Positions 5,904-54,115 of a stretch of 64,000 nt of DNA are shown piece after piece. Location of the stretch: contig NZ_BSNI01000002.1 of the NCBI RefSeq assembly GCF_030159895.1, forward strand, positions 2,382,306 through 2,446,305. The letters are read 5' to 3'. A program made the position numbers and the translations under genes. How positions within the stretch are numbered: the stretch's first letter is position 1; the number at the start of each line of letters is the position of its first letter. The notes beneath the pieces were generated by a model. The model saw only the letters and a program-made list of their open reading frames with translations, was not told where the DNA came from and made no database searches. This DNA comes from Maritalea porphyrae. Lineage in GTDB: Bacteria > Pseudomonadota > Alphaproteobacteria > Rhizobiales > Devosiaceae.

Positions 5904-5952
5904 ACGTCATGCCACGCCCAATCCAGCACTCAACACCCAATGGGGACTGAAC

Positions 5953-6642
5953 ATGAAATCAGCTGTGATTCTCTTTCCTGGTCTGAACCGCGACCGGGAT
6001 ATGCTTGCCGCATTAGAAAAAATCACCGGACACAAGCCACATGCTATTTGGCACGGTGACGCCGAATTGCCCAAAGTCGACCTGGTGGTCGTACCTGGCG
6101 GCTTTTCCTATGGCGACTATTTGCGCGCAGGCGCCATCGCAGCACGGTCCCCAGCACTTGCCGAAGTGAAGAAGCACGCAGACGCTGGCGGTTTGACATT
6201 GGGTGTTTGCAACGGTTTTCAAATCCTCACTGAAGCGGGTCTGCTCCCCGGCGCGCTGATGCGCAATCGCGATTTGAAATTCCTATGCAAGACAATCCAT
6301 CTAAAGGCAGAAAACACAACAAGCGCATTCACCAACCAATATGCTGAAGCACCAGTGTTCCCCTGCCCGATTGCCCATCATGATGGCAACTATCAAGTTG
6401 ATCCAGACGGTTTGAAAGAATTGCAGGATAATGATCGGATTGCATTTAGATATTGCGATGCGGATGGGAACACATCGCAAGCGGCAAATCCAAACGGGTC
6501 AATCGACAATATCGCAGGCATACTCAATAAGCGCGGCAATGTGCTTGGCATGATGCCACACCCTGAAAACCTGATTGAAAAAGCGCATGGCGGCATCCAA
6601 GGCCGTTTCATCTTTGAAAGCCTTGTGAAAGCGGTGGCATAA
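5953..6642 (+). CDS. purQ: Phosphoribosylformylglycinamidine synthase subunit PurQ
   Basis: A 229-residue class I glutamine amidotransferase, the glutaminase subunit supplying ammonia to PurL. It opens [15 protein letters not shown] and has the nucleophile motif G-V-C-N-G-F-Q (Cys near residue 86) and the catalytic H-P-E-N near the C-terminus. GGGGA precedes the ATG. The purL ATG follows its stop directly, with no gap, so the two are co-translated. Confidence 0.97.
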
Positions 6643-8850
6643 ATGCTCAAGAATATCGACATCGAAATCACCAAAGACCTTATCGCTGAACACGGCATTA
6701 ATGATGAGGAATATGCAAAAATCCTCGAACTGATTGGTCGCGAACCAACCTACACCGAACTTGGCATTTTTTCTGCAATGTGGAACGAACACTGTTCCTA
6801 CAAGTCGTCAAAGATCTGGCTCAAGACTTTGCCGACCAAAGGTGACCGAGTAATCCATGGACCAGGTGAAAACGCTGGTGTTGTTGATATTGGTGACGGG
6901 CAGGCAGTTGCTTTCAAAATGGAAAGCCACAACCACCCATCCTACATTGAACCATATCAGGGCGCAGCAACCGGCGTCGGCGGTATTCTTCGCGACGTGT
7001 TCACCATGGGCGCACGCCCAATCGCTGCGATGAACGCTCTGCGCTTTGGTGCACCAGAGCACGAGAAAACCCGCCACCTTGTATCCGGCGTTGTTGAAGG
7101 TATTGGCGGCTACGGCAACTCATTCGGAGTACCCACAGTTGGCGGCGAAGTTGAATTTGACCCGCGCTACAATGGCAACATCCTGGTAAACGCGTTTGCT
7201 GCTGGTCTGTTGGACACCGACAAAATCTTCTTGTGCGCCGCAAAAGGCGTTGGTCTGCCCATCGTATATCTTGGTGCCAAAACCGGCCGTGATGGCGTTG
7301 GCGGCGCTACAATGGCTTCTGCTGAATTTGGCGATGACATTGATGAAAAGCGCCCAACCGTCCAGGTTGGTGACCCGTTCACTGAGAAATGCTTGCTAGA
7401 AGCATGCCTTGAATTGATGGCCACCGGCGCGGTGATCGCCATTCAAGACATGGGCGCAGCTGGTCTTACCTGCTCGGCTGTTGAAATGGGCGCACAAGGC
7501 AACCTTGGTGTTGAATTGAACCTCAACGATGTGCCAACGCGCGAAGAAAACATGACACCATACGAGATGATGTTGTCCGAAAGCCAAGAACGCATGTTGA
7601 TGGTTCTTGACCCCGAAAAAGAAGATATCGCCAAAGCTGTCTTTGAAAAATGGGAATTGGATTTCGCAATCGTTGGCAAAACAACCGACGATTTGCGCTT
7701 CCGCTGTATTTATGACGGCATGGAAGTGGCAAACTTGCCAATTAAAGATCTTGGCGACGAAGCACCAGAATATGATCGTCCTCGTTCTGAATATCCAGCG
7801 CCTCCGGCCCTTGGTGATATTCCAGCCGATATTGACCCTGCTGCGTCACTTATGACGCTAATTGGCAATGCCAATGGCGCATCTCGCCGCTGGGTCTGGG
7901 AACAGTATGATACGCTCATCCAAGGCAACTCGGTGCAAATCCCAGGCGGTGACGCCGGTGTGGTACGCGTTGAAGGCGCAGACGGCAAAAAGGCCCTCGC
8001 CTTTTCAGTGGACGTGACCCCGCGCTATTGTGAAGCAAATCCGCGCGAAGGTGGCAAGCAAGCAGTCGCTGAATGCTGGCGTAATCTATCGGCAGTGGGT
8101 GCCCTTCCTTTGGCTTCAACTGATAACCTCAATTTCGGCAATCCAGAAAAGCCTGAAATCATGGAACAGTTCGCCCAATCAATTTTGGGCATTGGCGATG
8201 CGTGCCGCGCACTCGACTTCCCAATCGTTTCTGGAAACGTGTCCTTGTACAACGAAACAAACGGTATTGGCATTCTGCCAACCCCTGCCATTGGCGGCGT
8301 CGGCTTGATGGCCGATTGGTCAAAAATGATGACTCAAAGCTTCAAAAACGAAGGCGATGTGATTCTTTTGATTGGCAAAAATGGCACCCATCTTGGTCAG
8401 TCTGCATTTTTGCGCGACTGCCTTGGACGGATTGAAGGTGACGCGCCAAAAGTTGACTTGGACGAAGAAGCAAAGAACGGTGCATTCGTACGCGGCTTGA
8501 TCGATGCCGAGCTGCTAACTGCATCGCATGACCTATCAGATGGTGGGCTGGCGGTTGCTTTGGCAGAAATGTCGATTGCAGGCAATTTGGGTGCGACAAT
8601 AAATGTTAGCACAGATCTACAAACTTTGTTTGGAGAAGACCAAGCGCGCTATTGCATTACAGCTAATTCTGCTAATATCGACTCAATTCTGGCGCGCGCG
8701 TCTGAGCAAAATGTCACCATCGTCCAATTGGGAACAGTTGGCGGAGACCGCTTGATGTTTGGCGATGCGTTAAGCCTGAAGGTAACAGATATGCGTGTAG
8801 CACACGAAAGCTGGTTCCCTGACTACATGACGGCGGAAGCAGCGCAGTAG
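6643..8850 (+). CDS. purL: Phosphoribosylformylglycinamidine synthase subunit PurL
   Basis: A 735-residue small-type PurL, the ATP-dependent synthetase making FGAM. Landmarks: [14 protein letters not shown] near residue 45, M-E-S-H-N-H-P-S with the [12 protein letters not shown] loop, [20 protein letters not shown] and [10 protein letters not shown] near residue 628. Its length fits the form that needs separate PurS and PurQ subunits, both present upstream. bolA follows after 35 bases. Confidence 0.97.
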
Positions 8851-46226: not shown

Positions 46227-47033
46227 ATGGGCTTTATCAACGATCTATTCGGCAATGTTGACAATAATCTTTGGGTAATAGCCGGAAGCCTGGTTACAGT
46301 AGTTGTTGCAATAGTCTTGGTCGTTTGGCTTCTCAAATTTGCATTCAATGCCAGCAGAAACGGACTTGGCAACCGGGTTAAAAGGCTAGGCGTAATTTCA
46401 ACTGCGGCCGTGGACAATAAGCGTCAGCTGGTCATCATTCGTCGAGACAACAAAGAACACCTGATTATGATCGGTGGCCCAACTGACGTGGTCATTGAAA
46501 CGGGTATTGATCCCGATGAATCCGTGGTGCAAAAGACCCCAGCAAAACGAGCAAAAACGGTAACCACCCAAACCGAACAGGCCAAAGCAGAACCAAAGGT
46601 GGAGCCAATTTCCACTGAACCTAAGTCCCCAGCGCCAAAACAGCCGATTTCCACAAAACCATCTACAAATGGCACCGTTCCGTTTAATCGCGCAGCGCCA
46701 CGTATTGTCCCGGCACCTTCAAGCGAAACGAAGGAACCGGCGCCAGAATCTAACGTCACCGCGATTGAAAAACTGCGTGAACTCGGCAAGTCCAGCCCAG
46801 AAACAACCGCGTCGACACTACGCTATCCTGGTATTTTACGCCCAGTAACACGTCACAAAGGCGTGGATAGAAGCGAGTTGGATCAAAATAACGACGATGA
46901 TTTGAACGACTCAGATAAATTAGCTGCTCAGGAAGCACCCGAAATTGAGGTGGTGCAAGGAGCAGATGGTGACAAGGACGACGATGCGACCAACGACAAA
47001 AAGTCAGGTCGCAAGCCAGCAAACAGCAAATAG
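46227..47033 (+). CDS. fliO: Flagellar biosynthesis protein FliO
   Basis: A 268-residue FliO, the assembly chaperone of the FliP ring. One membrane span (residues 14-38, V-I-A-G-S-L-V-T-V-V-V-A-I-V-L-V-V-W) is followed by the FliO domain with L-G-V-I-S-T-A-A-V-D-N-K-R-Q-L-V-I-I-R-R-D and H-L-I-M-I-G-G-P-T-D-V-V-I-E-T. The remaining 170 residues are a long Pro/Ala/Lys-rich, acidic tail of low complexity, longer than in enteric FliO. The end overlaps the start of fliP by about 50 bases. Confidence 0.88.
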   Translation: MGFINDLFGNVDNNLWVIAGSLVTVVVAIVLVVWLLKFAFNASRNGLGNRVKRLGVISTAAVDNKRQLVIIRRDNKEHLIMIGGPTDVVIETGIDPDESVVQKTPAKRAKTVTTQTEQAKAEPKVEPISTEPKSPAPKQPISTKPSTNGTVPFNRAAPRIVPAPSSETKEPAPESNVTAIEKLRELGKSSPETTASTLRYPGILRPVTRHKGVDRSELDQNNDDDLNDSDKLAAQEAPEIEVVQGADGDKDDDATNDKKSGRKPANSK

Positions 47034-47811
47034 CAGCGGCAACGACATAGACTTCGTTAAGGCAACGCTATTGCGTTGTCTGAAGCTTTCTGCGGCATGT
47101 TTTGCGGTCATGTTAGTTGGCTCTCTCATCGCATTCCCAGCACTTGCACAAGACATTTCTGTCGATTTCGGCGATCAAACCACACTAACTGAGCGTGCGG
47201 TCCAGTTGATCGCCATTATCACAGTCCTATCGCTTGCGCCTTCCATTTTGGTCATGGTGACAAGTTTCACTCGCATTGTGGTGGTCTTGTCGCTTCTACG
47301 GACAGCGATTGGCCTACAGACTGCGCCACCAAACTCGGTGATGATCTCACTTGCGCTCTTCCTTACGGCCTTTGTGATGGCACCAACTTTGCAGCAATCC
47401 TATGACGCTGGCATCGCACCGCTTGTTGCAGGCGAGTTGCAATTAGAAGATGCGCTACCGCGCGCGGCCGAGCCAATTCACGAGTTCATGCGCCTTCATG
47501 TTCGCGACAAGGATGTGCAGCTATTCTTAGATCTAACGGAAACCGATATTCCAGAAAATCCGGAAGACCTTTCGCTGACCATTTTGGTGCCAGCCTTCAT
47601 GATTTCTGAACTTAGGCGGGCATTCGAGATCGGCTTCTTATTGTTCGTGCCATTCATCGTCATCGACATGGTGGTTTCATCTGTCCTTATGTCCATGGGT
47701 ATGATGATGCTGCCACCAATCGTGATTTCGTTACCGTTCAAGCTGATTTTCTTCGTATTGGTAGATGGATGGCACCTGGTCGCCGGATCGCTCATTCGAA
47801 GTTTCGGCTAG
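46984..47811 (+). CDS. fliP: Flagellar export gate protein FliP
   Basis: A 275-residue FliP. After a hydrophilic lead of about 30 residues comes a cleavable signal ending F-P-A-L-A-Q-D, then four spans with V-M-V-T-S-F-T-R-I-V-V-V-L-S-L-L-R-T-A-I-G, P-P-N-S-V-M-I-S-L-A-L-F-L-T and M-G-M-M-M-L-P-P. ATG 46984 has AAGGA five bases upstream; 46966 is an alternative with AAGGAG. Either way the gene overlaps fliO in another frame, so the two are coupled. Confidence 0.93.
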   Translation: MRPTTKSQVASQQTANSSGNDIDFVKATLLRCLKLSAACFAVMLVGSLIAFPALAQDISVDFGDQTTLTERAVQLIAIITVLSLAPSILVMVTSFTRIVVVLSLLRTAIGLQTAPPNSVMISLALFLTAFVMAPTLQQSYDAGIAPLVAGELQLEDALPRAAEPIHEFMRLHVRDKDVQLFLDLTETDIPENPEDLSLTILVPAFMISELRRAFEIGFLLFVPFIVIDMVVSSVLMSMGMMMLPPIVISLPFKLIFFVLVDGWHLVAGSLIRSFG

Positions 47812-47830: not shown

Positions 47831-50800
47831 TTAGAGCACGTCCGCCTGCGGCGCGATGGCGCCACTATCGACATATTGCGTCTTATAGGCATTGAGGAAC
47901 GAGTTTAACGAATCTACGTCCGCGATTTGGCGGGCAAGTTTTCTAAACTCCACGGTGCCATATGCAGTTTTGCTGGTAACAAATTCAAATACTGGCCATT
48001 CCGGCGTCCCCGCCATGCGGCCTGAATATTTCGCCCGCAGCCTTGTTAGGCCAATTTCATCGCCCGCCAAAGTATAAGCGACCGCCGCTTTGACCATATG
48101 GTTGCGCACGGAAGTTGAAAGCGCACCACTTGGCAAACCATCAGAATAAATCCGTTCTAACATTTCGCCAGCTTCCCGATAGCGACGGCCAGACCAATGC
48201 GCATCGACCTCCAGCAGCGCAGCATCACGCCCCTCAAGTCCGCGCAAAATATCCACTGCCAATTCGTCGCGGCCCGCATCTATAAGCGCTCTCGCCTCTA
48301 GAATCCGACGCTGGCGCTCAAGTGTTGGCACCAAATTGGCAAGTCGCGTTCGATAAAGTGTCTTCAAAGCCAAGTCGGGGCGATGGTCAGCAATTTGAAT
48401 AACCGCGAGATCTGCTGCTACTTTTGAACGTGCAACCCCCTCCAAGCGATTATCAATTTGATATTCAAGCAAGCCGCCAGCTTGTTCCAGCAGGTCGACT
48501 TTCACCAAGCGGCGCGCCAGATTGCGGATCATTTCATCGCCCTTAGCACCAACAGGCGCCAAATGGCGGAAATCATAAAACACAGCAAGCGCAGAGATTG
48601 GGTCCATCCGATCCGCTTCACCATCTAGATAGAGGTCCGCAAAGACCTGCTTTGCTTCCTCGTAAAGCGCGGTTTCATCGGGCGTGTCTTGGTATTCTGC
48701 CGCCATCAGCTCTAGAGTTTCAAATCCAGCGCGATAGTCGCCTGACCGAAATTGGAATTGTCCCATCATGTGCTGAATTTTCGCCGCCAAATGACCACCA
48801 CGCCACGTCAGGGACTGTAGCTCTAGGGTTTGCTTAGCTTTTTCAACATCCACCTTGTTGGTTTTGTCCAAAATAACCAACGTGCGATAAACAGCTTCTG
48901 CATGGGTAGGACGAATGCCCGCATTCATCACAGAACCATAGGTATCAAGCGCTTCTTCATAGCGCTCCTCTATCTCATCAATCCGACCAGAAAGAAGATC
49001 ATAGGTTGAAAGATCTTCCTGATCCAAGCGCGCAAAATCAATGGCATCCAGATAACGGACCGCCAAACTTGCATCGCTTTCCTCAACTGCTGCGCGCGCT
49101 GCAGCAAAGTAGAACTTGTTTTGCAACCAATCGGGGTAATTCTGAACAGCCTCTTCTGACAACAAAGCATCCGCGCGCGCCATATCATATTCCGCGCGCT
49201 GCACCCGTGCCATTGTACGCCACATTATCGCATCAGACGCTTCTGCAAGGCTATCCTCCAGCAGCAATTCAAGCGCATCATCCGGCCGACGGGCCAACAC
49301 GCTCGCGGCTGCTTTTGCAATTTTTGTTTTCTCAAGTAGTGCGGGGCGTTTTGTGTCCGCCAGTAAGACGTTGGTTATACCAATAGCTTCGTAGGCAAGC
49401 TGTTCGGAAAGGAAAAAGCGCGCCAGTTCAAGTCGCGTCGCTTCCAATTGAGGACCCTCTGCGTCCGCTGCCCGATTGAATATTTCTTCAAGCTTATCGC
49501 GGTAGTCCTGCGGGTTGTTCACCGAAAAACTTGTTAAATCTAAGTAGCTTATCCGGTTCTCATTCTCTTCCGTGGTCTGATTGGTTCGCCGCTCCAAACC
49601 AGAAGACAAAATCAATCCATCGTTGGAATCAATGATCACTCGGCTTTCAGCGATTTCCAAAGTTAGCTCGTGATGAAACGGTTTAACCACTAAACCGTGC
49701 ACAGCACGAAGCGCTCGAAAGTCTACATATTCCAAATCGCGAACCACCGCGCGAGATGGCGGATATGCAGTTACCACATGCAACATATCCCCGACATTCG
49801 GGTCACGGATTTTGTGCACTTTTGCAGGGCGCTGCAGATCAGCTGAAATACGCACGCGGCCCGTCGAAGTCGTCTCCTGCTCCAATGTCATGGGCTCTGT
49901 TGGCGCGATCAAGATATCGCCGAGTGACAGAACCCAAGATCGACCCTCAGAGCCCAGCGTGGCCAATCGATCAGCATTCATATTCAAACGCACAATTTGC
50001 GTTTCGCCCGCACTATCAACCTCAATATCGCTCGCAATTCCGCCCATCATGTCCATGTCAGCGGGCTTGTCGATACTCACGTGAGTATCAAAAATCATCC
50101 AAACCGCTCCGCCGCGCTTATAGACCGCAGCAGGCGTGTCCTGTTCAAATGGGAAGACTAAGCGAACAGTACCGCCGATGCGGTTGATAAAAGGCGTAAT
50201 CGACGTCTGTCGCGAGAATGCAGGCCCGCGCTCAAGTTTCTGCTCTTGCATAACTTCTGCTGGCGTCTTCTCTTCTTCCTCGGTCGTCAATTCAAGATCA
50301 TCAGGAATATTGCCTTCGACCAAATCTGCCAACGGAACGCTGATGCTTTCGTTATTTGAAAAGTCCAGATCGAGCGTGTAGCGCCGCTTTTCTTCGTTGA
50401 AAAAGCGTGGGTCCACCTCTTCGGCCAATTGAAACACGATCAACAGCCCATCGTCGGAGACAAGTTTTGAGACCCCCAAGATTTCAGGCGGCAAATCAGA
50501 TTCGATCTTGTAAAGATCAACATCAACGGGCCACTCGAACCGCAAAGACGCAGTACGATCTTCCACATTAAACTCGGCTTCTGTTTCCATCGACCAATCG
50601 AAAACGACCCTAGAAAAAGTGGGATGCCGACCTAGGCGTATCTCCATTTCGGGCTTAGATTCGCGGGCAATCTTTGCTTTGCGACGTCGTTCAGCCAGCA
50701 AAGCGGCTTGCTCGGCACGCAAGGCAAGTTCCTTCACCACTTCCTCAGGAAGCGCAGGATCCAATCCGGTCCAATCCTCTGGGATTAGGTCGATAAACAG

Positions 50801-51196
50801 CCGTTCGCCAGCCTCAATCTTGTTGATGCGATAATCTCGCTTCAATCCAAATCGCAACCCTTTGCGATCCGGGTCAAGTCGACCAACTGCAATATATTCG
50901 CTTAGATGCTCGGTGACGTCAGGGAGAGCAACTTCGATTGGCTTAGAAAACTCAAGCGACATCACGCCGCCCTGCGTCTTAAGTGTATAGGATGGCAAAT
51001 TGAGCCGGTCTTTAAAGCGGATAATTAGACGGCCATAGCCCGTTTGCCCTTGGGCAATAACTTCAACACGCTCACTTTGCACGCTCGTTTGAGCGTAAAC
51101 TGGTTGCAAAAATGCACACACCAAACCAATCGCCATCCACAATAGGATCGCGAAAGCGCGCAGATCAGCGGCTTTTGGTGCGTTTTTTACATTCAT
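47831..51196 (-). CDS. Large exported TPR-like protein at the end of the fliL-fliM operon
   Basis: A 1121-residue protein. A signal peptide (about residues 10-36) ends P-V-Y-A-Q. Residues 40-480 are beta-rich and contain about four related segments of the type F-S-R-V-V-F-D-W and L-R-F-E-W-P-V-D-V-D, reminiscent of AMIN domains that bind cell wall. From about residue 560 on the protein is all helical with TPR-like repeats. It follows a MotE-like gene in the operon, so a periplasmic role around the flagellar motor is likely; MotC of rhizobia is shorter and not clearly related. ATG 51196 chosen over TTG 51205. Confidence 0.75.
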   Translation of the reverse strand: MNVKNAPKAADLRAFAILLWMAIGLVCAFLQPVYAQTSVQSERVEVIAQGQTGYGRLIIRFKDRLNLPSYTLKTQGGVMSLEFSKPIEVALPDVTEHLSEYIAVGRLDPDRKGLRFGLKRDYRINKIEAGERLFIDLIPEDWTGLDPALPEEVVKELALRAEQAALLAERRRKAKIARESKPEMEIRLGRHPTFSRVVFDWSMETEAEFNVEDRTASLRFEWPVDVDLYKIESDLPPEILGVSKLVSDDGLLIVFQLAEEVDPRFFNEEKRRYTLDLDFSNNESISVPLADLVEGNIPDDLELTTEEEEKTPAEVMQEQKLERGPAFSRQTSITPFINRIGGTVRLVFPFEQDTPAAVYKRGGAVWMIFDTHVSIDKPADMDMMGGIASDIEVDSAGETQIVRLNMNADRLATLGSEGRSWVLSLGDILIAPTEPMTLEQETTSTGRVRISADLQRPAKVHKIRDPNVGDMLHVVTAYPPSRAVVRDLEYVDFRALRAVHGLVVKPFHHELTLEIAESRVIIDSNDGLILSSGLERRTNQTTEENENRISYLDLTSFSVNNPQDYRDKLEEIFNRAADAEGPQLEATRLELARFFLSEQLAYEAIGITNVLLADTKRPALLEKTKIAKAAASVLARRPDDALELLLEDSLAEASDAIMWRTMARVQRAEYDMARADALLSEEAVQNYPDWLQNKFYFAAARAAVEESDASLAVRYLDAIDFARLDQEDLSTYDLLSGRIDEIEERYEEALDTYGSVMNAGIRPTHAEAVYRTLVILDKTNKVDVEKAKQTLELQSLTWRGGHLAAKIQHMMGQFQFRSGDYRAGFETLELMAAEYQDTPDETALYEEAKQVFADLYLDGEADRMDPISALAVFYDFRHLAPVGAKGDEMIRNLARRLVKVDLLEQAGGLLEYQIDNRLEGVARSKVAADLAVIQIADHRPDLALKTLYRTRLANLVPTLERQRRILEARALIDAGRDELAVDILRGLEGRDAALLEVDAHWSGRRYREAGEMLERIYSDGLPSGALSTSVRNHMVKAAVAYTLAGDEIGLTRLRAKYSGRMAGTPEWPVFEFVTSKTAYGTVEFRKLARQIADVDSLNSFLNAYKTQYVDSGAIAPQADVL

Positions 51197-51275
51197 CGAC
51201 CGCAATGGGCTCCGACATTTTCACTCCATACAAATTATCGCGGTAGGCTTAACGGCGCCTTACTATTTGCCCATT

Positions 51276-52037
51276 CTACTGACCAACAATCTGCGGTAAT
51301 TCGTCATTGCTTGGACCATCAACCGTCTGACTCATGTCCGTGAGGTTGGGATTTGCCAGATTTATGGTGAGCGCTTCAGCTTTTTCAGGGTCCATTGCCG
51401 ACATAATCGTCGCCATTTTTCGTGGGTTAATGCGCTCAACCATGCGCACCAGTACAATCATATCCAAACGATCAAATATCCGAGCAGCATCTTTGGCCTT
51501 CATGTTCTCATATGTAGCCACCAACGCTTTGAACTTTTCTTCTTCTTGGCTTTCTTTGCGGTCCACCAATTCAGATATTCGCGCTTCGATTTGTTTCAGT
51601 TCATTTGCGCGCGTCTCAAGACGCAATTCAGCTGCCCTTACAATAGATTCTTGCACCGCCAACTGTTCCGCCAATGCATCAAGCTGCTTGCGCCGCTCAC
51701 TCAAACGCTCCAAAAACTCAAGTTCCGTTGGCGCCACGCCCGAGGCTTCGCTTAAGGCTTCAAGTTGTCCTTGTGTATTCAAGACCTTGGCAACAGCATC
51801 GGTTGGCCGGTTTGGATCCAGCGCCGCATTTGTCGCTTCAACAACTGGATTGGTTGCTTCCTCTTCGCCGCCTTGTTCCGTCGCCTGTTCACCTTCCGCA
51901 GCAGCTTCTGCTTCCTGCGCGATAACTTCACGGGTGCCAAAAATATAGAGGTCGCCAGTTACAAAGCCAAAAAGCTTGAACAGTAGCAGCGCGGACGCCA
52001 CGACCATCACGACCGGCAAAAGTCTCACTGAGTTCAC
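51276..52037 (-). CDS. MotE-like flagellar protein (MgtE_N-related)
   Basis: A 253-residue protein: one N-terminal membrane span (residues 7-27), an Ala/Glu-rich linker, a long coiled coil (about residues 105-185) and a C-terminal domain with A-K-D-A-A-R-I-F-D-R-L-D-M-I-V-L-V-R-M-V and I-N-P-R-K-M-A-T-I-M-S-A-M-D-P. This is the MotE layout; in Sinorhizobium MotE is a periplasmic chaperone for MotC. GTG start, overlapping the preceding gene in GTGA. Fourth gene of the fliL operon. Confidence 0.85.
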   Translation of the reverse strand: MNSVRLLPVVMVVASALLLFKLFGFVTGDLYIFGTREVIAQEAEAAAEGEQATEQGGEEEATNPVVEATNAALDPNRPTDAVAKVLNTQGQLEALSEASGVAPTELEFLERLSERRKQLDALAEQLAVQESIVRAAELRLETRANELKQIEARISELVDRKESQEEEKFKALVATYENMKAKDAARIFDRLDMIVLVRMVERINPRKMATIMSAMDPEKAEALTINLANPNLTDMSQTVDGPSNDELPQIVGQ

Positions 52038-52459
52038 GCAGCAGCTCCATCACGCCGCGAAAAGTTATCGAGCTGGTCAAGCGCGGCTTTCGCTTTAAGC
52101 GGCTTTTCCTTAGGTTGAGGCGCCGCGTTTTTCGCAGTCTGGGCAATCATGGCGATTTTACTCATCACCGAATGACCAGCATTGACGTGATGCGCAAGTT
52201 CAATCGAAAAACTCTCGGCTTCACTTAGACGCGTTTGGATCATGCCATCGCACTCAATCGCCGTTTTGCGCAATTCAGTAATTGCGCCATTCGCCTGATC
52301 GGTTGCGCGCACCAAGTCAGTAATCATGGTTTGCAGAGCGGCGCGATCATCGCGCAAACGCTTCAGCCTCACATTTAGTATGTAGCAGTAACCAATTGTA
52401 AGAATGAGCAGAACAGCGACGGCACCCTCTACGATTAGTCCAAGTGCAAAATTACCCAT
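52034..52459 (-). CDS. DUF6468/PflI-like small membrane protein of the fliLM operon
   Basis: A 141-residue protein with one span (residues 8-29) then a coiled coil (about 30-110) and a short basic, proline-containing tail. It sits two bases after fliM and overlaps motE. The type and position recall the alphaproteobacterial DUF6468 family and Caulobacter PflI, a bitopic protein for flagellar placement encoded in the flagellar cluster. That link is from memory of layout and context, not from sequence motifs. Confidence 0.65.
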   Translation of the reverse strand: MGNFALGLIVEGAVAVLLILTIGYCYILNVRLKRLRDDRAALQTMITDLVRATDQANGAITELRKTAIECDGMIQTRLSEAESFSIELAHHVNAGHSVMSKIAMIAQTAKNAAPQPKEKPLKAKAALDQLDNFSRRDGAAA

Positions 52460-52461
52460 AA

Positions 52462-53610
52462 TTAGTCATCTCCTTGCTCATCCATGGCCTCGAACACTGC
52501 CATGGTCACTTTTGGAGGGTTAAGTGGTCGCGTAACCCGCACTGAAACATTTTTCCCAATATGACCCATAATGCCCTCGGTCAGCATCACGTCGCCGCAC
52601 CGCAAAGACACCGGATCACTGGGCGAACGTTCAAACATCAACGTGTCGCCCTCTTCTAACTTCAACATGTCTGAAAGGGGGATTTCCCATTCATGCAAGA
52701 CAGCCTCAATGGAGGTATCTGCATTGAAAATTTCGGTCGCAAGGTGCCCTTCCCAGATGGGATCGCGACCAAACTTCTCACCCATGAACATTTGTAGCAA
52801 TTGCTCACGAATTGGCTCGATCGTCGCATATGGGAGTAGAATCTCGACCTTGCCGCCGCGATCATCCATATCGATGCGCAGTTCGATCAAAATCGCAGCA
52901 TTTGCCGGCCTTGCGATAGCGGCAAAGCGCGGGTTGGTCTCCATGCGTTCAATCTTGAAGTTAACCGGTGTCAACGGCTCAAAAGCCTTGTGCATGTCGT
53001 CCAAGATCAACTCGATCATGCGATTGGTCAGCGACATCTCAATTGTCGTATAAGGTCGGCCTTCAACCCGGATCGTATTGTTGCCGCGGCGTCCACCCAA
53101 AAGCACATCAATCATGGAATAGATGAGGTTACTTTCAACCGTCATCAAACCAAAGTTGTCCCACTCTTCGGCCTTGATTACCGTCAAAATCGCTGGAAGT
53201 GGAATAGAGTTCAGATAGTCGCCAAAACGAACAGACGTGATGCTGTCCAAAGACACTTCAACGTTATCAGAGGTGAAGTTGCGCAAAGACGTCGTGGTCA
53301 ACCGCACCAAGCGGTCAAACACAATCTCCAACATCGGTAGACGTTCGTAGGAAACCAGAGCCGAGTTAATGAGCGCCTGGACCCCGGAAAGGTCTCCGAT
53401 GCCCATGTCGCCACTATCAAATCCTAGAAGGTTATCAATTTCGTCTTGGTTTAGAATACGATCGACGGCAGCGCCATCTTCATCATCATCGCCACCTTCG
53501 ATCATTGCAGCCCATTCAGCAGCCGCGCCTTCGCCATCTCCGTCCGAGCTTTCCTCGTCACCAGAGATTCCAAATTCTTTTAAGAGATCGTCAGTGTCAG
53601 ATTCCGACAT
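52462..53610 (-). CDS. fliM: Flagellar motor switch protein FliM
   Basis: A 382-residue C-ring protein. An acidic N-terminus of about 55 residues leads to D-Q-D-E-I-D-N-L-L-G-F, then the CheC-like middle domain with N-S-A-L-V-S-Y-E-R-L-P-M-L-E, and a C-terminal SpoA domain with V-L-H-E-W-E-I-P-L-S-D-M-L-K-L-E-E-G-D. The usual CheY-binding peptide at the extreme N-terminus (L-S-Q-x-E-I-D) is here displaced behind the acidic stretch. No fliN or fliG follows, unlike many operons. Confidence 0.95.
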   Translation of the reverse strand: MSESDTDDLLKEFGISGDEESSDGDGEGAAAEWAAMIEGGDDDEDGAAVDRILNQDEIDNLLGFDSGDMGIGDLSGVQALINSALVSYERLPMLEIVFDRLVRLTTTSLRNFTSDNVEVSLDSITSVRFGDYLNSIPLPAILTVIKAEEWDNFGLMTVESNLIYSMIDVLLGGRRGNNTIRVEGRPYTTIEMSLTNRMIELILDDMHKAFEPLTPVNFKIERMETNPRFAAIARPANAAILIELRIDMDDRGGKVEILLPYATIEPIREQLLQMFMGEKFGRDPIWEGHLATEIFNADTSIEAVLHEWEIPLSDMLKLEEGDTLMFERSPSDPVSLRCGDVMLTEGIMGHIGKNVSVRVTRPLNPPKVTMAVFEAMDEQGDD

Positions 53611-53623
53611 GCTTCAAGCGCCC

Positions 53624-54115
53624 CTATTGCACCAATATCTCTTTGAAAACAATGCTCTCAACTTGAGTTGGGAACAGTGCCAAATTCACACGGCGGCGTA
53701 ACTCTTCCTTCAAGCGATAGATACCCGCTGACCCCTCAAGATCAGATTTGCGCAATTCGCGAAGGTAAACTTGGAAAGTATCCAGAACGCGCGGCATCAT
53801 TGCATCAACCTGCGGCACCAAGCTTTCATCGGCCAATTCAAGAGAAACAATGACTTTCAAGAAGAGCTCTTTGCTCTCCCCTTTAGAGTTCAAGTTTACT
53901 GTGATGGTCTCAAGGTCATGAAAATAGGTCTGGCGCACTTGCTCCGCCTGAACGGACGCCGCATCATCTCCACCGCCCGAAAACAAAAAGAAGTAAGCCG
54001 CACCGCCGCCGCCAAGCAACAAGATGACCGCCGCACCAATGATGATCATCATTGGGGGGCCTTTTTTCTTCTCGCCTTCTTCGCCTTCTACGTCTTCAGC
54101 CGTCTGGTCTGCCAT
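53624..54115 (-). CDS. fliL: Flagellar basal body-associated protein FliL
   Basis: A 163-residue FliL: lysine-rich cytoplasmic N-terminus (E-G-E-K-K-K-G-P-P-M), one span (residues 24-44), a Gly/Asp linker, then the stomatin-like periplasmic domain with Y-F-H-D-L-E-T-I-T-V-N-L-N and a C-terminal E-S-I-V-F-K-E-I-L-V-Q. FliL surrounds and supports stators. It heads the leftward fliL-fliM-DUF6468-motE-TPR operon. A possible CtrA half-matching box lies 73 bases upstream. Confidence 0.95.
   Translation of the reverse strand: MADQTAEDVEGEEGEKKKGPPMMIIIGAAVILLLGGGGAAYFFLFSGGGDDAASVQAEQVRQTYFHDLETITVNLNSKGESKELFLKVIVSLELADESLVPQVDAMMPRVLDTFQVYLRELRKSDLEGSAGIYRLKEELRRRVNLALFPTQVESIVFKEILVQ

Follow-up and report, generated by a model that had tools for sequence, protein, structure and literature searches.

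The 64,000-nucleotide stretch of the Maritalea porphyrae genome considered here (the window; positions 2382306-2446305 of its contig, in a host genome of 3.35 Mb) encodes, at the end of a flagellar operon, a 1121-residue protein of the MotK/FssB/PflA type that most probably serves the MotE ring (E-ring) in the flagellar motor as a spoke-like partner, holding the stators. Maritalea belongs to the family Devosiaceae of the order Hyphomicrobiales. The gene lies on the minus strand, a detail absent from an earlier note made from the letters of this DNA. Its open frame (47831-51205) comprises 1125 codons including the stop and begins with a TTG that would give 1124 amino acids, and the ATG at 51196 yields the 1121 residues that the note had read, with the gene at 47831-51196. 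Since homologues are found in many genomes, this is not a chance open reading frame (ORF), and the gene is real.

Predicted architecture and likeness to PflA

The build of the protein is read from two ColabFold models, one of the full length (39 homologues, mean predicted local distance difference test score (pLDDT) 84.7, predicted template modelling score (pTM) 0.49) and one of residues 38-530 (pLDDT 87.6, pTM 0.45); with such values, the folds of single domains are reliable in both models, whereas the relative placement of the domains is not. Both the model and hydropathy place an export signal helix at residues 11-36 (51089-51166, on the minus strand like every feature of this gene). The 19-residue windows starting at residues 9-17 reach means of up to 2.29, and no window beyond this one strongly hydrophobic, N-terminal stretch of the protein reaches 1.6. 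By hydropathy and inspection the helix looks like a putative signal peptide, in agreement with the earlier note, with a membrane anchor as the alternative. It is followed by AMIN domain 1 (residues 42-139, 50780-51073), AMIN domain 2 (residues 184-279, 50360-50647), a linker predicted to be disordered and variable in length (residues 282-330, 50207-50353), AMIN domain 3 (residues 336-426, 49919-50191) and a fourth beta domain (residues 438-523, 49628-49885). Domains 2 and 3 are spaced by about 57 residues here, as against 128-207 in the four order-level homologues measured.

The AMIN-like beta segments of which the note had spoken thus take the form of three AMIN domains in the models. Domain 2 superposes on AmiC (4bin residues 34-145) over 99 residues with Z 12.8 and a root-mean-square deviation of 2.4 Å; a PilQ model comes second (Z 12.3, with a deviation of 19.3 Å, as several domains are spanned), and the next row falls to Z 6.6. 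A Foldseek search with the residues 38-530 model returned nothing at E 0.001, its best match, the multi-AMIN PilQ model, standing at E 0.0012 and AmiC at 0.10. Compared with one another by hhalign, domains 1 and 2 are related with a probability of 95%, domains 2 and 3 with 87% and domains 1 and 3 with 46%, and the fourth domain reaches 0.1% against the AMIN repeats; on these profile comparisons, the three AMIN domains are homologous repeats and the fourth is unrelated to them.

The remainder of the protein is a TPR-like solenoid of 31 helices (residues 562-1111, 47864-49513) with no strand inside it in the model, and VIA-align matches it to TPR proteins; structure prediction, which the earlier note had named as a check, thus shows the long TPR-like region that it had claimed. 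Within the solenoid, conservation reaches 0.62 in residues 861-985 (48242-48616) as against 0.43-0.51 elsewhere, and we propose this as the segment that may bind MotE. Pfam alone is too weak to reveal the AMIN and TPR build, as its matches to the protein (AMIN-like, E 0.0072, over domain 2; ARM_TT21, E 0.0003) are both below the cut-off, and at E 0.01 it finds AMIN-like in 2 and TPR_19 in 13 of 39 family members. An NCBIfam scan of the protein gave no match, and a sequence search of the PDB found none at E 1.

A Foldseek search of the PDB with the full-length model gave 1436 matches, headed by 9hmf chain K, from the periplasmic scaffold of the Campylobacter jejuni flagellum (E 1.3e-9), with a eukaryotic transport-complex protein second (E 9.6e-7). 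Chain K is 773 residues long, and PflA is, as we take it, 788 residues long. With PflA modelled from residue 16 (PMC12222027), we read chain K as PflA from its length. In our view the match speaks for a shared kind of build and does not prove common descent. The likeness to the Campylobacter disk that the earlier note had ventured thereby gains ground, since the best Foldseek match is a chain of that scaffold, and published work groups MotE with FlgY/FlbB in the E-ring and counts MotC, MotK and CC_2058 among the spoke proteins together with PflA (PMC11870540, PMC13023049). For the likeness to the disks of vibrios, at which no search was aimed, nothing was found.

Conserved place behind motE and alternation with MotC

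Pfam matches on the minus strand bear out the operon that the note had drawn, with the 1121-residue gene last: fliL (53624-54115; PF03748, E 4.7e-17), fliM (52462-53610; PF02154, E 1.1e-65), a gene for a DUF6468 protein (52034-52459; PF20072, E 8.6e-21) and motE (51276-52037), whose product, an E-ring protein of the FlgY/FlbB type, matches MgtE_N (E 8.7e-4) and collar_FlbB (E 0.0015), both below the cut-off. The DUF6468 gene occupies the position described for pflI (PMC10954123) and, judged from that position, probably belongs to the PflI family. On the other side, 19 bp separate the end of the 1121-residue gene from that of fliP, which is convergent on the plus strand (46945-47811; PF00813, E 4.5e-79).

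This arrangement is conserved together with the family. Homologues were matched in 47 of the 61 genomes of a relatives search and in 439 stretches of named genomes, 80 of which were kept as named loci; among the named relatives, the closest come from Maritalea mobilis, at 64% identity, and M. myrionectae, at 62%, with those of Cucumibacter and Devosia after them. The order fliL-fliM-pflI-motE stands upstream in all 67 of the 80 named loci that have more than 5.5 kb upstream, and in 18/18 order loci of 15-19 kb (20 were fetched and 18 counted, some from the same species as the named ones). The motE gene lies within 1.5 kb upstream in 73 of the 80 named loci, five others being cut by a contig end and two Devosia loci (L088 and L089) having a gap of about 2 kb, and a convergent fliP lies downstream in 61 of the 70 with room for it. 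In the Devosia locus L088, the gap (5936-7900) holds diacylglycerol-kinase-like and metallophosphoesterase-like genes, as read from the ORFs.

At E 0.01, the family profile matches 171 of 297 genomes in a sample of the order and 212 of 385 in a sample of the class. FliP marks 236 of the class genomes as flagellated, and the family is present in 201 of these at E 0.01 and in 198 at E 1e-7 or below, a limit that drops seven class genomes with E above 1e-7, G651 among them; at the same limit it is found in 7 of the 149 FliP-negative genomes. A plasmid search with the 1121-residue protein turned up only six weak places, and no match among them extended over 80% of its length.

In six class loci outside the order, a short MotB-like gene stands between motE and the family gene (L195 5105-5809, L196 7303-8340, L197 7881-8585, L198 8867-9550, L199 8714-9490 and L202 10977-12020; MotB_plug E 2.9e-12 to 0.0031). 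An OmpA domain was recognised in two of the six MotB-like proteins scanned, and two further loci, L201 and L203, show the MotB-like gene by BLAST only; the 18 order loci and the 80 named ones yield no MotB-like match. This gene beside motE could encode a second MotB or some additional part of the motor.

The earlier note had suggested that the protein may replace MotC, and the distribution of the two strongly supports this. We built a profile from MotC of Sinorhizobium meliloti, a 434-residue protein encoded behind motB, together with five of six relatives whose genes likewise follow motB, and this profile found MotC at E 1e-3 in 74 of the 297 order genomes. FliM was found in 202 of the 297 (198 above the Pfam cut-off); a pair of FliM matches in one genome may sometimes come from a single split gene. 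A single FliM was found in 178 genomes, of which 142 have the family only, 35 have MotC only, none has both, and one, G229, which is 71% complete, has neither; among the 24 with two FliM, 21 have both partners and three (G087, G149 and G201) have the family only. As genomes with one FliM go with one partner and most of those with two FliM go with both, the family protein and MotC alternate per motor across the sampled order. MotC is underestimated in the one-FliM count, since its type of FliM gives low scores and was missed at E 1e-3 in 18 of the 74 MotC genomes, which were left out of it. Without a FliM match there are also three genomes with the family and 74 with none of FliM, the family and MotC; G171 and G220, which have MotC and a family match at E of about 0.006, were dropped before the FliM tally. 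MotC loci were read in six of the 21 dual-system genomes, and all six carry motB-motC among separate Sinorhizobium-type flagellar genes; in four of them (L244, L246, L247 and L249) motE can be seen between flgI and flgH, and the remaining two stretches do not show the flgI-flgH part.

The host genome agrees with this pattern. Its motA and motB lie on another contig (motB at G000:C1:589737), not beside the 1121-residue gene, the next ORF past motB is a 149-residue frame on the opposite strand, and the MotC profile finds no match at E 1e-3; with the convergent fliP downstream of the 1121-residue gene, the observation in the note that no motC-sized gene follows it stands. A second MotE was sought with MgtE_N and none was recognised among the matches, which besides MotE comprise a 513-residue frame (probably MgtE itself) and, as the ORFs read on inspection, a 356-residue FliG-like protein and a weak match over a MarR-like ORF.

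The 1121-residue protein was also considered as MotC itself, and this was rejected, as it has no detectable sequence similarity to MotC and is not encoded behind motB. The hhalign probability between MotC and the family is 1.2%, and none of six MotC proteins exceeds 2.0 bits against the family profile. A common origin with MotC has been proposed (PMC13023049), and an undetectable sequence relation leaves room for it. Our literature search, made mostly on paper listings and without supplementary tables, found no account of three AMIN domains or of an exchange with MotC from motor to motor within the Hyphomicrobiales; either may nonetheless have been published.

Among the records read, CP090106.1 (704347-745108, L174), which is labelled as S. 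meliloti plasmid pSymB and has a length of 3.7 Mb, holds the main flagellar cluster. That cluster is chromosomal in S. meliloti, and the pSymB label is probably wrong.

Proposed role and its alternatives

MotK is described as a periplasmic protein with AMIN-like and TPR-like parts that is needed for rotation and binds MotE and MotB2, and its mutant is paralysed (PMC10954123); deletion of fssB (CC_2058) leaves cells nonmotile with filaments present (PMC7885107). From these mutants in other species, we infer that the protein here binds MotE and peptidoglycan, is arranged as a spoke and is needed for rotation. Exported to the periplasm by Sec, it would dock with its conserved C-terminal TPR region (residues 861-985) on the MotE ring that encircles the MS-ring; its three AMIN domains would reach outward to the peptidoglycan, and perhaps to MotB, near the stators. 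It would hold the stator units in place or open, so that the motor turns, and would fill the slot that MotC has in Sinorhizobium-type motors. The orientation, with the TPR end inward, is borrowed from PflA, whose C-terminal solenoid is described as pointing toward the motor axis (PMC12222027).

A link by profile to the MotK position itself can also be drawn. In two genomes of one family, the order fliL-..-motE-motA is followed by a protein that scores 58.9 bits in one and 36.9 bits in the other with the family profile, as against 4.1 bits for the best of 600 shuffled decoys. Both match in AMIN-region segments (174-324 and 174-297) and then in TPR segments, in the same order as the family. Taking score, segment order and gene position together, these MotK-position proteins are likely homologous to the family, as weak relatives of it. 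No pflI was recognised by BLAST at their loci, and no MotK-like gene was recognised in the feature tables of the plasmid-borne flagellar clusters of Sulfitobacter and Marinovum.

Several points weigh against this account of the protein as a MotE-ring spoke. Its functional basis is borrowed by analogy from other species, outside this genus, and MotK of Cereibacter and CC_2058 are set beside the protein by their published description and not by sequence. The superposition on 9hmf is poor (TM-score 0.14/0.19, root-mean-square deviation 29 Å), the match having been made by local structure letters to an alpha-carbon trace, and 9hmf does not appear in the VIA-align table of the full-length model, whose 50 rows are filled by TPR proteins; such a superposition may be what is expected for a long, bent solenoid compared with an alpha-carbon trace. 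There are 38 FliP-positive genomes among the 236 of the class without a family match at E 1e-7. In the phylum sample (219 genomes), matches outside the class reach E 1.9e-6 over a single TPR stretch, a value that we take as the noise level; single stretches of the G651 MotK-position protein in the genome scan (3.5e-7 and 6.5e-6) stand slightly above this TPR noise, that of G345 (E 0.029) falls within it, and shuffled decoys give no control for TPR repeats. As a separate observation, the genomes G345 and G651, which carry the MotK-position proteins, are two of the 38.

The protein could alternatively be a stator-activating factor dependent on MotE, a client of MotE as MotC was in the older view, which unlocks MotB and forms neither spoke nor ring. 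MotE has been described as a chaperone of MotC, MotK localisation needs MotA2/MotB2, and recruitment of MotE was seemingly reduced without MotA2/MotB2, which fits stator-bound factors (PMC10954123); suppressors of fssA, a related mutant, also lie in stator genes, 11 of 14 of them in motB (PMC7885107). However, MotE-GFP is reported to localise without MotK, MotA2 or MotB2 (PMC13023049), contrary to a MotE that is a chaperone only, and a long solenoid with an AMIN end is the build of PflA, to which models of the C. jejuni motor give the place of a spoke, and we regard a stator activator of this kind as unlikely.

PilQ and AmiC likewise contain AMIN domains, and the protein might on this ground be a general AMIN-TPR protein of the envelope, related to peptidoglycan or pili, that merely shares the operon; this is very improbable in view of the family's occurrence with FliP (198/236 with and 7/149 without), its fixed place behind motE and its per-motor alternation with MotC. 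The gene also adjoins the pflI-position gene, and PflI is reported to position the Caulobacter flagellum (PMC10954123), as would suit a scaffold that works with PflI in flagellar assembly or positioning and not with stators. To such a scaffold we give scarcely any credence, as motK and fssB mutants are described as forming filaments that do not turn.

With the protein read as a spoke-like MotE partner, the motors of Devosiaceae and of most other sampled flagellated Hyphomicrobiales would be placed in the E-ring-and-spoke class of Campylobacter and the spirochetes. On balance, and with some reserve, we favour a broader view in which a single family, which a profile can follow from Devosiaceae as far as the MotK position in Fla2-type operons, is the standard partner of the MotE ring in most alphaproteobacterial motors, each Hyphomicrobiales motor has exactly one of two partners that look unrelated, this family and MotC, as interchangeable links between E-ring and stators, and the three AMIN domains give the family protein a peptidoglycan anchor of its own. 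Large genes at the place of motK in Caulobacteraceae were not connected to motK by BLAST (PMC10954123), and the family profile would now link what BLAST left apart between Rhodobacterales and Caulobacteraceae. The swap with MotC across related bacteria is informative, and species with two flagellar systems carry both partners, which makes the per-motor alternation directly testable within one cell.

Comparison with known systems

MotE-partner proteins of the spoke kind are already in print as MotK and FssB, which the earlier note did not know, and the protein here has the features of that group: an operon place downstream of motE and an exported build (export being judged by hydropathy) of AMIN and TPR parts. 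MotK of the Cereibacter sphaeroides Fla2 system (PMC10954123) is likewise described as exported, with an AMIN-like N-terminus and a TPR-like C-terminus, encoded in a fliL-pflI-motE operon in a genome without MotC. It differs in its 652 residues, its 8-strand AMIN-like N-terminus and the motA between motE and motK, whereas the 1121-residue protein has three AMIN domains and a fourth beta domain, and its gene follows motE directly, with motAB at another place in the genome. FssB (CC_2058) of Caulobacter crescentus (PMC7885107; PMC11870540) is encoded directly downstream of the motE homologue CC_2059 and is likened to the protein by description, with a secretion signal, an AMIN-like start and a TPR region; it is known from its phenotype, nonmotile with filaments, and is required for stator-dependent surface signalling.

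PflA of Campylobacter jejuni, a proximal disk spoke (PMC12222027, PDB 9HMF), shares an N-terminal beta domain, a linker and a long TPR solenoid with the protein, but is described with one N-terminal beta-sandwich, in place of three AMIN domains and a fourth beta domain, and as working with PflB. MotC of S. meliloti is alike as a periplasmic MotE partner with helical repeats (PMC13023049) that takes the same slot, one per motor, and unlike in its 434 residues, its gene place behind motB and its sequence, which has no detectable relation to that of the 1121-residue protein.

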